Below, piece after piece: positions 21,197 through 25,633 of a stretch of 38,315 nucleotides of DNA; the first letter of the stretch is position 1, and every line of letters starts with the position of its first letter. Source of the DNA: a virus. Location: positions 1-38,315 of IMG/VR virus record IMGVR_UViG_3300021197_001887. One strand, written 5' to 3'. The notes below the pieces were generated by a model. The model was not told where the DNA came from and ran no database searches. It worked only from the letters and a program-made list of their open reading frames with translations. The translations under genes and the position numbers were made by a program.

Positions 21197-21236
21197 AAAA
21201 AGCCGCTGGCAGACCGGTCTAAAGTCTGCCGCTTTT
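21197..21236 (+). terminator. Terminator-like hairpin, family copy 2
   Basis: The stem GGCAGAC (21208-21214) / GTCTGCC (21224-21230) is extended by AAAAGC/GCTTTT across a CGCT bulge, ending in T4 (21233-21236). The sequence AAGCCGCTGGCAGACCGGT is identical in copies 3 and 4. It sits 16 bases before the lipoprotein ATG. Confidence 0.7.
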
Positions 21237-21252
21237 AAGGAGACAAAGCACA

Positions 21253-21363
21253 ATGAGACTAGTTCTACCAGTCCTTGCTGTGACCCTATTGATGGGTTGC
21301 GGGGATAAGGATGAAGACACGGCGGGAGATACCGCTGCCTCTGCTGATACTGCAGTGGAGTAA
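21253..21363 (+). CDS. 36-residue lipoprotein
   Basis: This small ORF encodes MRLVLPVLAVTLLMGC followed by GDKDEDTAGDTAASADTAVE. Arg2, a hydrophobic core and the lipobox L13-M14-G15-C16 make a clear type II signal peptide. The mature product would be a 21-residue acidic lipopeptide. An AAGGAG Shine-Dalgarno lies at 21237-21242. It is framed by hairpin copies 2 and 3. Tiny phage lipoproteins include Rz1 spanins and T5 Llp-type exclusion proteins, but Rz1 is Pro-rich and this one is not, so no function is assigned. The composition (Asp/Thr/Ala repeats after Cys) resembles lipoproteins of deltaproteobacterial groups. Confidence 0.75.
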   Translation: MRLVLPVLAVTLLMGCGDKDEDTAGDTAASADTAVE

Positions 21364-21366
21364 CAA

Positions 21367-21407
21367 AAAGCCGCTGGCAGACCGGTAAAAAGTCTGCCGC
21401 ATTTTTT
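21367..21407 (+). terminator. Terminator-like hairpin, family copy 3
   Basis: The stem GGCAGAC (21376-21382) / GTCTGCC (21392-21398) is followed by GCA and T6 (21402-21407). It is identical over about 40 bases to copy 4. The ParB-like gene's own promoter starts 12 bases after it, so here it could act as a true terminator. Confidence 0.8.
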
Positions 21408-22664: not shown

Positions 22665-22706
22665 ATAAGCCGCTGGCAGACCGGTAAAAAGTCTGCCGCA
22701 TTTTTT
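22665..22706 (+). terminator. Terminator-like hairpin, family copy 4
   Basis: The stem GGCAGAC (22675-22681) / GTCTGCC (22691-22697) is followed by GCA and T6 (22701-22706). It is an almost exact duplicate of copy 3, 1.3 kb away. The next ATG is 20 bases downstream and no promoter lies between, so the downstream genes need readthrough or RNA processing here. Confidence 0.8.
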
Positions 22707-22725
22707 AAATTACAAGGAAAAAACA

Positions 22726-22934: not shown

Positions 22935-24080
22935 ATGGCCAAAAAAGCCACCAAAGCAGGTCGCGTTAATATGCAAGACCTAATGAAATTAGTAAACAAG
23001 AAAGCCGGCAGAAATGTAGCCCATGATTTGTCTGGTGATAATCCAACTTCTGTAAAAGAATGGATACCCACAGGCTCTCGCTGGCTCGATTCTATTATCT
23101 GCAAAGGGCAAGTTGCCGGGATCCCAGTTGGAAAGGTAACCGAGATTGCAGGCTTGGAATCGACCGGAAAATCTTATATGGCAGCACAGATCGCCGCAAA
23201 CGCCCAAAAACAGGGAAAGGCTGTGGTGTATTTTGATTCCGAGTCAGCTATCGACCCAAGTTTTTTAGAGAGAACTGGGTGTGATTTGGCGCGCCTTATG
23301 TATGTCCAAGCATCCTCTGTCGAGTTTGTTTTGGAGACTATCGAGGAACTCCTTGGTGCGGCTGAGGATCAGTTAGTTTTTATTTGGGATTCATTGGCCT
23401 TCACGCCTTCGATTTCTGACGTTGAGGGAGATTTTAATCCTCAATCGTCGATGGCTGTAAAGGCTCGTATTCTAGCGAAAGGTATGTCTAAATTGACTAT
23501 TCCATTAGCAGATGCTCAAGCAACGCTGATTGTATTAAACCAATTGAAGACCAATATTCCGCAAGGCCCGAATGCGCGGATTGTCGCAATGACGACACCA
23601 TACACCACTCCTGGCGGCAAAGCTATGCACTATGCGTATTCTTTGCGAGTTTGGCTAACTGGTCGCAAGGCTAAGTCTTCTTTTATCGAAGACGATAAGG
23701 GATTCCGGATTGGCTCTGAGGTTAAAGTAAAGCTTGAGAAATCACGCTTTGGAACTCAAGGGAGATCTTGCGCATTCCGAATTTTGTGGGGTACTCAGGA
23801 GATTGGTATTCGCGACGAAGAAAGTTGGTTTGATGCTATCAAGAGCGCCGAAAGCCTAACCTCGGCGGGTGCTTGGTACACTCTATCCACATCAGATGGA
23901 TATACAAAAAAGTTCCAGCCATCAAAGTGGACTGATTTAATCAAGAATGATGAAGAATTTCGCTCTCACGTTATTAAGATTATGGACGAAGAGATTGTAC
24001 AAAAGTTCGACAAACGTGAAGGTGATGCAAAAGCTTATTATGAAGATCAAGAGGACTTGACCGTCCCAGTAAAGGAATAA
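22935..24080 (+). CDS. uvsX: UvsX/RecA-like recombinase
   Basis: This 381-residue recombinase forms filaments on ssDNA and promotes strand exchange. The Walker A motif is GLESTGKS (residues 73-80), followed by VVYFDSESAI, the strand-helix containing the catalytic Glu region, and a Walker B-like LVFIWDSLAF. The QLKTNIPQGP segment and the GGKAMHYAYSLRVWL region correspond to DNA-binding loops and the core of RecA/UvsX. Length is close to T4 UvsX (391) and E. coli RecA (353). A GAGGGGA Shine-Dalgarno lies just ahead of ATG 22935. It would cooperate with the gp32-like protein. No UvsY is recognised nearby. Confidence 0.92.
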   Translation: MAKKATKAGRVNMQDLMKLVNKKAGRNVAHDLSGDNPTSVKEWIPTGSRWLDSIICKGQVAGIPVGKVTEIAGLESTGKSYMAAQIAANAQKQGKAVVYFDSESAIDPSFLERTGCDLARLMYVQASSVEFVLETIEELLGAAEDQLVFIWDSLAFTPSISDVEGDFNPQSSMAVKARILAKGMSKLTIPLADAQATLIVLNQLKTNIPQGPNARIVAMTTPYTTPGGKAMHYAYSLRVWLTGRKAKSSFIEDDKGFRIGSEVKVKLEKSRFGTQGRSCAFRILWGTQEIGIRDEESWFDAIKSAESLTSAGAWYTLSTSDGYTKKFQPSKWTDLIKNDEEFRSHVIKIMDEEIVQKFDKREGDAKAYYEDQEDLTVPVKE

Positions 24081-24090
24081 GGATTAAAAA

Positions 24091-24444
24091 ATGACATTAC
24101 TGATGATATTGTTAGCATGTGGTAGCCCAGAACCGCCGGCAGAAACTCCACAACCACAGGCCAAGATCGTAAAGCCGGCCCCACCGGAGCGAACCGCTGG
24201 AGAGAAAGCCTATAGGAGAGCCGGCTGCCGAGCTTGTCATTTGAATTCTGCAACCGGCGCCCCCGATTTGAAAAAATGGAAAGAAGACAATAAAATTGCT
24301 GGCACTCTCGATATAACACGTGAAAATATGAAGTCATATCTTCTTGCGCCACAAGATTATGTTGCTGGCTCTATTATGCCGCCAACACGTCTCAGGGCAG
24401 AAAAGTTAAATGATCTCTTAGACTATCTTTTTGAAGAGCTATAA
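24091..24444 (+). CDS. Predicted monohaem cytochrome c lipoprotein
   Basis: This 117-residue protein begins with a short hydrophobic signal MTLLMILLA ending at Cys10 (LLAC, lipobox-like), then a Pro-rich linker (residues 12-33), then a class I cytochrome c domain: haem attachment motif C46-R-A-C49-H50 and a distal ligand candidate M96 in 'GSIMPPTRL'. Intervening 'AGTLDITRENMKSYLLAPQDY' and the closing 'LNDLLDYLFEEL' helix match the C-terminal cytochrome c domain of COX2-type proteins. The product would be anchored outside the inner membrane and carry electrons, if matured by the host system. The signal is very short and lacks a basic residue; an in-frame TAA at 24085 rules out a longer start. 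A GGAATAAGGA Shine-Dalgarno is present. It sits between uvsX and a small coiled-coil gene with which it abuts. Confidence 0.75.
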   Translation: MTLLMILLACGSPEPPAETPQPQAKIVKPAPPERTAGEKAYRRAGCRACHLNSATGAPDLKKWKEDNKIAGTLDITRENMKSYLLAPQDYVAGSIMPPTRLRAEKLNDLLDYLFEEL

Positions 24445-24630
24445 ATGAAGTGGATTAAAAAATTGCTTGGACTGCGTACTCCTATAGAAAAAAAGAAAGC
24501 TGAACTGTCAAAGATGAGACAGCAGGCGATGATAGTCCAGAGAAATGGAAATATAAGAGCATACAGTGAGCTGTCTAAAAAGATCGAAGAACTTGAAGAC
24601 GAAATTGTAAATATGATCGATCTTAATTAA
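24445..24630 (+). CDS. Small Lys/Glu-rich coiled-coil protein
   Basis: This 61-residue protein starts with a hydrophobic-basic tip (MKWIKKLLGL) and continues as one long charged helix with heptad-like Leu/Ile spacing (KKKAELSKMRQQAM...YSELSKKIEELEDEIVNMI). It resembles short DUF6435/Lacal_2735-type proteins (30-40 residue helix with 'QRNGNIRAY' turn), but I am not sure. ATG immediately follows the cytochrome stop codon with no strong Shine-Dalgarno, so it is probably translated by coupling. The function is unknown. Confidence 0.6.
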   Translation: MKWIKKLLGLRTPIEKKKAELSKMRQQAMIVQRNGNIRAYSELSKKIEELEDEIVNMIDLN

Positions 24631-24639
24631 AGAAAGTAC

Positions 24640-24668
24640 TTGACTTTCCCTCTGGGATTGGCTATAAT
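24640..24668 (+). promoter_or_regulatory. sigma70-type promoter for the UV endonuclease unit
   Basis: TTGACT (24640-24645), 17 bases, then TATAAT (24663-24668), 30 bases before ATG 24698. The stretch AAAGAAAGTACTTGAC matches the sequence upstream of the 21419 promoter at 15 of 16 positions. Confidence 0.85.
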
Positions 24669-24697: not shown

Positions 24698-25633
24698 ATG
24701 CGAAACTACGGCTATGCTTGCATCAACATGGGGTTCTCAAACCGCCCCAAATCGCAACGCATCACAACTAACAGGACTATGATCAAGCGCACGTTCCAAG
24801 AGCGTGGTATTGACTATGCTTCAGAGCTTGCGCTCCAAAATCTACGCGACTTGCGTAAGATCCTAGAGTGGAATCTAGAAAACGACATTTACTTCTACCG
24901 CTTGTCATCGGACATCGTGCCGTGGGCTAGCGAGTATGACTTGCACGATATGCCCAACTATGGTGCTATCCATGCAGCAGCATTGTCCGCAGGTAACTTT
25001 GCTCGCGAGCACGGTATGCGTATTACATCACATCCTGGTCCGTTCAACAAGCTAGCATCTCCCAAGGAGCGTGTGTTCCAGCTTACTAAGACTGACTTGT
25101 CGGTCCACGGCGATCTGTTCGACCTTATCGGCCTACCGCAGACACCGTATGCCAAGCTCAATATCCACGTCGGTGCTGCTTACGGTGACAAGCCGTTTGC
25201 TCTCGACAACTTCTGTCGCAACTTCGAACGCCTACCTGACAACGTGCGCTCACGCCTTACGGTTGAGAACGATGACAAGGCTTCGCTATACTCCACCAAA
25301 GAATTGTATGATGGCGTTTACAAGCGCATCGGCATTCCGATTGTGTTCGACTATCATCACCACATGCTGCACCCCGGCGGCCAGTCTGAACAAGAAGCCC
25401 TTGAGCTTGCCTTGTCTACGTGGGGGGATGTCAAGCCAGTTGTGCATTACGCAGAATCGCGCTCTATCGAGCATAATAACCCCAAGATCAAACCTCAAGC
25501 ACACTCAGATATGATCCGCAATCCATTCAGTGATTACGGCCATGACCTTGACGTTATGATCGAAGCCAAGCACAAAGAGCTTGCATTGTTAGAATATCGT
25601 GTTATAATGAATGAACAAAGGATGGCAGTATGA
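24698..25633 (+). CDS. uvsE: UV damage endonuclease (UvdE/UVSE family)
   Basis: This 311-residue enzyme would nick DNA 5' of UV photoproducts. The family pattern is evident: N-terminal 'YGYACINMGF', then 'NLRDLRKILEWNLENDIYFYRLSSDIVPWAS', metal-binding regions 'SHPGPFNKL', 'NIHVGAAYGDK', 'LTVENDDKASLYS', 'IPIVFDYHHHMLH' and 'VVHYAESR'. This is the TIM-barrel AP-endonuclease-like fold with His/Asp/Glu metal ligands. Its length is typical of bacterial UvsE. An AAGGAGGG Shine-Dalgarno lies at about 24684-24691. Its stop overlaps the next ATG (ATGA), coupling it to the nuclease gene. It would protect phage DNA in sunlit habitats (inference). Confidence 0.9.
   Translation: MRNYGYACINMGFSNRPKSQRITTNRTMIKRTFQERGIDYASELALQNLRDLRKILEWNLENDIYFYRLSSDIVPWASEYDLHDMPNYGAIHAAALSAGNFAREHGMRITSHPGPFNKLASPKERVFQLTKTDLSVHGDLFDLIGLPQTPYAKLNIHVGAAYGDKPFALDNFCRNFERLPDNVRSRLTVENDDKASLYSTKELYDGVYKRIGIPIVFDYHHHMLHPGGQSEQEALELALSTWGDVKPVVHYAESRSIEHNNPKIKPQAHSDMIRNPFSDYGHDLDVMIEAKHKELALLEYRVIMNEQRMAV

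Follow-up and report, generated by a model that had tools for sequence, protein, structure and literature searches.

A putative oxidase-type cytochrome c gene inserted between uvsX and uvdE in the DNA of a marine tailed phage

Cytochromes c are haem proteins that pass electrons to oxygen in bacteria. Phage genes that support photosynthesis are well known, and to our knowledge there is little documentation of phage genes that act at the oxygen-reducing end of respiration in heterotrophs. A short open reading frame within a 38,315-nt viral record (the window, that is, the whole stretch of DNA analysed here) raises the question of whether a lytic phage may carry such a gene, and what its product would do during infection. 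An earlier note had read this frame, from the letters alone, as a phage-encoded cytochrome c lipoprotein with features of COX2-type domains.

Phage-borne electron carriers as such are already known. Cyanophages carry plastocyanin and ferredoxin, and plastocyanin (PetE) has been suggested as a donor to cytochrome oxidase (review PMC10452541); like the predicted product of the gene studied here, it is a phage-borne, small periplasmic electron carrier, but it is a copper protein of unrelated fold from phages of photosynthetic hosts. SoxD of sulfur phages (PMC8190135) is likewise phage-borne and of cytochrome c type, but it is a subunit for thiosulfate oxidation, and haem motifs are missing from some of its phage copies (PMC8190135). 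A study of nitrogen-cycle phages did not observe cytochromes or other electron carriers in them (PMC8115048). A viral cbb3 oxidase has been claimed from virome reads (PMC3474794), and a later study warned of cellular contamination in viromes (PMC3877843). Judged by sequence, what appears new here is the variant, an oxidase-type cytochrome c in a marine tailed phage.

Gene, predicted protein and export signal

The reading frame and the motif positions claimed for it (L7-L8-A9-C10, C46-R-A-C49-H50 and M96-P97) were all found as described, and uvsX, named as its neighbour, lies directly upstream (Table 1). The ATG is 10 nt past the uvsX stop codon, with AAGGA upstream as a ribosome site. Codon usage of the annotated frame fits the phage best (mean log codon frequency -4.02, against at most -4.36 for the five remaining frames). 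The gene retains its haem ligands and has an operon-like position in the phage that suits expression.

Among profile databases, Pfam Cytochrom_C (PF00034) matched residues 36-113 with 26.4 bits (E = 1.8e-5), which is above its curated cut-off of 21.3 bits and hence beyond chance, while FixO and Cytochrome_CBB3 also matched, both below their own cut-offs. NCBIfam gave weak matches only, to several cytochrome families including SoxX and ExtS, and a PHROGs search returned no cytochrome match. In an alignment of twelve sequences (A1; the phage cytochrome and 11 bacterial homologues, COX2 domains included), C46, C49, H50, A54, L60, M96, P97 and Y112 were invariant, and M96-P97 aligned opposite the Met-Pro of the caa3 oxidase COX2 protein 2yev_B in a PDB sequence match. 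Taken from these motifs and matches, the protein is almost certainly a class I mono-haem cytochrome c.

Export as a lipoprotein through LLAC is plausible. The putative signal, MTLLMILLA, has 9 residues and no Lys or Arg, and departs from the usual positively charged n-region and hydrophobic length; its lipobox carries Leu at the second place (pattern used, [LVI][ASTVI][GAS]C), which is rarer there than Ser, Thr or Ala. A longer N-terminus with a normal signal was considered and is ruled out by an in-frame TAA at 24085-24087, three bases before the ATG. Because this stop codon bars a longer start, the short and uncharged signal, which the earlier note had remarked upon, is not an annotation error.

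Table 1. Features of the cytochrome locus in the window, and the COX2 fusion gene of sibling phages
Feature	Position	Strand	Evidence
Predicted cytochrome c gene, 117 aa, ATG start	24091..24444	+	Pfam Cytochrom_C, alignment A1, structure matches
Putative 9-residue signal MTLLMILLA and lipobox Cys10 (LLA/C)	24091..24120	+	sequence
Pro-rich linker (residues ~11-34); class I cytochrome c domain (residues ~35-117)	within 24091..24444	+	
Haem c attachment motif C46-R-A-C49-H50	24226..24240	+	invariant in A1
Predicted axial ligand M96, with P97	24376..24381	+	invariant in A1
uvsX recombinase, upstream neighbour	22935..24080	+	PHROG 97 UvsX-like, E = 8.4e-63
547-bp block missing in close relatives (cytochrome and most of the DUF6435 gene)	24081..24627	+	blastn to L001
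DUF6435 small protein, 61 aa, begins right after the cytochrome stop codon	24445..24630	+	PF20027, E = 1.4e-13
uvdE sigma-70-like promoter TTGACT-17-TATAAT, right border of block	24640..24668	+	11/12 consensus matches; conserved in relatives
UvdE-type UV endonuclease, downstream neighbour	24698..25633	+	PF03851, E = 2.6e-59
COX2-cytochrome c fusion, 335 aa (P0001)	L196:8788-9792 (G665, IMGVR_UViG_3300020437_000003); also L198 and, in part, L199		COX2_TM, COX2, Cytochrom_C all above cut-offs

Kinship with oxidase-linked cytochromes and COX2 in sibling phages

The nearest bacterial matches (30-38% identity) were either COX2 domains or small cytochromes encoded on their own in cox operons. Genome surveys likewise returned COX2 C-terminal domains and small stand-alone cytochromes as best matches, the latter in several cases encoded no more than ~10 kb from a COX2 gene, and plasmid records agreed, their matches being annotated coxB and c-type cytochrome; in the Marinimicrobia set, the matches fell to one domain of a multi-haem protein of some 1000 aa. 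In Rhizobium sp. Pop5 (NE852_RS31685) and Catenovulum adriaticum (OLW01_RS15130) the small cytochrome follows coxB-ctaD-cox3 and an assembly protein gene (ctaG) within the operon; it shares 34% identity with the phage protein over 82-86 columns. These stand-alone cytochromes resemble the phage protein in size, single haem and export (predicted in the phage), but the phage gene has no nearby oxidase genes and its signal is different and much shorter. A scan of genome contigs found no close cellular donor.

Comparisons with known structures led to the same family. The best PDB sequence match for the single query was 2yev_B, subunit II of caa3 oxidase, at an E value (0.017) that is weak alone; with the A1 profile, itself containing COX2 domains, the value was 4.5e-20. 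A single-sequence fold model was unusable (pLDDT 48), and a two-sequence AlphaFold model of the domain was modest (pLDDT 62, pTM 0.53); since the only alignment partner of the latter was the cytochrome domain of a sibling-phage COX2, it may have been pulled towards caa3. Using this model, Foldseek placed 2yev_B first (prob 0.99, TMq 0.62, E 0.15), and VIA-align placed 1w2l, the caa3 cytochrome domain, first (Z 8.1, rmsd 3.2, 84 aligned). The caa3 C-terminal domain (2YEV chain B, 1W2L) is alike in predicted fold and in the spacing of CXXCH and Met-Pro, whereas the phage protein is free-standing, has a shorter loop after CXXCH and, according to Pfam, lacks transmembrane helices and a CuA domain. 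With sequence, Foldseek and VIA-align searches all putting the caa3 COX2 cytochrome domain first, the proposed COX2-type assignment is supported.

When 50 related viral records were searched with Cytochrom_C, a single match came up, in G665 (146 kb). Synteny of this record with the window extends over ~27 kb, and the proteins there share 30-88% identity. The matching protein is a COX2-cytochrome c fusion (Table 1) with intact CuA ligands (DVLHS ... FCTEYCGTKHSGM), CAGCH and Met; its gene directly follows one that weakly matches a late sigma factor and lies one gene before an amidase-domain gene. The same COX2 gene occurs in G694 (187 kb), and because the surrounding 17 kb is identical in sequence, the two records may be one phage assembled twice. 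A third contig, L199, holds an 89%-identical N-terminal part of the protein at the very end of the contig, in a different gene context. Two IMG/VR scans, one with the COX2 protein and one with an alignment, yielded these three contigs only, and COX1 was not found in the records that carry COX2. In one phylum sample, COX2 proteins reach 48% identity to the phage COX2. COX2 matches in INPHARED (23-28%) are mostly from unannotated records, two being annotated cyoA, and are likely cellular sequence.

The sibling fusion shares its phage clade and its proposed pathway with the window cytochrome, but it is a full membrane subunit with a CuA site, which the window protein is not. In a tree, the window cytochrome grouped with stand-alone cytochromes and the Marinimicrobia domain, without firm support, and the cytochrome domain of the sibling COX2 fell in a different branch or subfamily. 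Given these different subfamilies, the window gene is not a fragment of the sibling COX2, and the two are separate acquisitions. The kinship of the window cytochrome to oxidase-linked cytochromes, together with the independent presence of COX2 in siblings, favours a role in electron delivery to the oxidase.

The product could also be a true cytochrome c with a different periplasmic redox enzyme as its partner (a peroxidase, a nitrite or nitric oxide reductase, or sulfur oxidation), detoxifying or rerouting electrons. Mono-haem class I cytochromes are promiscuous carriers, and both the weak SoxX and ExtS matches and the weakly supported position near the Marinimicrobia multi-haem domain would agree with such a partner. 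We consider this unlikely, as COX2-type domains rank first in sequence and structure comparisons alike and it is COX2 that the sibling phages carry.

The locus and its rarity among phages

Among the genes of the window, a virus record of 38 kb, are those for a tail sheath, UvsX, a DnaB-like helicase, a large DNA polymerase and ribonucleotide reductase, as well as endolysin-like ones. The replication region of the window is common to hundreds of IMG/VR contigs. In the relatives L001 and L207 (uvsX 99% and 91% identical in amino acids), uvdE follows uvsX by ~70 bp, and in L001 this 70-bp gap holds a strong sigma-70-like promoter. Against L001, the blastn alignment runs to the final base of the uvsX stop codon (24080) and restarts at 24628, which identifies the 547 bp between these points as an insertion. 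The cytochrome gene is a metabolic gene between the phage genes uvsX and uvdE, a location expected of a phage auxiliary metabolic gene. No terminator-like site was reported on the + strand between uvsX and the cytochrome, so that the block probably depends on the uvsX transcript.

The DUF6435 gene adjoins the cytochrome in the window and lies downstream of uvdE in L005, L032, L070 and L213. As a lead to other carriers it gave no viral match in a scan, and weak matches near uvdE in relatives. The interval between uvsX and an exonuclease gene is a variable cargo site in relatives (e.g. L015, L029, L065, L070 and L102), in which the genes after uvsX encode small His-rich, apparently exported proteins lacking a Pfam match, deaminases, pyrimidine-dimer glycosylase, UvdE, DUF6435 and a ThyX-like protein. 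Upstream of uvsX, the window also encodes a mini-lipoprotein of 36 residues (MRLVLPVLAVTLLMGCGDKDEDTAGDTAASADTAVE; 21253-21363, +), and DNA matching it occurs in many relatives, often just 5' of uvsX. It lies between two of three near-identical copies of a hairpin-like element (21197-21236, 21365-21404 and 22667-22709), each consisting of GCCGCTGGCAGACCGGT...AGTCTGCCGC followed by T-rich sequence, which are possibly repeated terminators.

Within the reach of the searches, the expectation that such a gene would be very rare in phages was borne out. Searches of 50,697 phage genomes (INPHARED, protein and DNA) and, within pattern reach, of IMG/VR (including via the uvdE locus) revealed no homologue, and a BFVD structure search gave no viral protein at a useful score; the lone weak INPHARED match, obtained with a bacterial homologue as query, was to a Helicobacter phage record (E 0.01). 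A survey of uvdE yielded 59 contigs with both uvsX and uvdE, adjacent in 30, and the cytochrome was in none of the 59. Open-access full-text literature likewise contained no phage-encoded cytochrome c of this kind.

Presence in one contig only, together with the short, uncharged signal, is what would be expected of a gene picked up recently as a passenger that does little or nothing for the phage, such as one whose product is not exported. All haem ligands are nevertheless intact, codon use is phage-like, the spacing is tight with a ribosome site, and the frame has stayed open despite wide divergence from homologues; we regard a passenger as quite unlikely. It is improbable, too, that the product is a small envelope lipoprotein that acts in superinfection exclusion or remodels the envelope and uses the cytochrome fold as a mere scaffold. 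Many relatives do have other small, exported-looking His-rich proteins after uvsX, some with a lipobox, but these match nothing in Pfam and lack a cytochrome motif, and a scaffold need not retain both haem attachment and the axial Met. A defence function was also considered and rejected, PADLOC giving no match.

Misassembly of host DNA into the phage contig, to which the single occurrence might point, can be dismissed as having next to no likelihood: the borders of the insertion fall precisely at the uvsX stop codon and ahead of the conserved uvdE promoter, the site is empty in close relatives, the flanks are 89-90% identical to L001 in nucleotides on both sides, and both codon use and GC content (46%, against 45% for the phage) are phage-like. 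The claim that the gene is phage-encoded thus stands.

A possible role in host respiration

The reading that we prefer over these alternatives is that of an exported cytochrome feeding the terminal oxidase of the host. The product would be a small class I cytochrome c like those encoded in caa3-type oxidase operons, exported and loaded with haem by host machinery and, if the lipobox is used, tethered to the membrane through its Pro-rich linker. In the infected cell it would deliver electrons to the host cytochrome c oxidase, and the benefit might be that respiration and ATP supply are kept up when host cytochromes run short. We hold this mechanism as a whole, from export, lipidation and haem loading to partner and benefit, to be slightly favoured. 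The window itself contains no partner oxidase gene, and a respiratory role is made more likely by the COX2-cytochrome c of the siblings. The ribonucleotide reductase of the phage was matched in two short contigs from MAGs labelled Marinimicrobia and Gammaproteobacteria (80% and 70%), a link too weak to point to a host.

On a broader and more tentative proposal, which seems to us somewhat unlikely, a clade of large marine phages would take over the electron entry of the host haem-copper oxidase, with a soluble or tethered cytochrome c in some members and, in others, a phage-made COX2-cytochrome c that replaces subunit II, the resulting hybrid oxidase sustaining respiration in the dying cell.

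The presence of a cytochrome c or a COX2 gene in members of this phage group suggests interference with host respiration. As the cytochrome c and the sibling COX2 lie inside assembled phage contigs, and the site of the cytochrome is empty in relatives, direct control of host respiration by lytic phages becomes testable.
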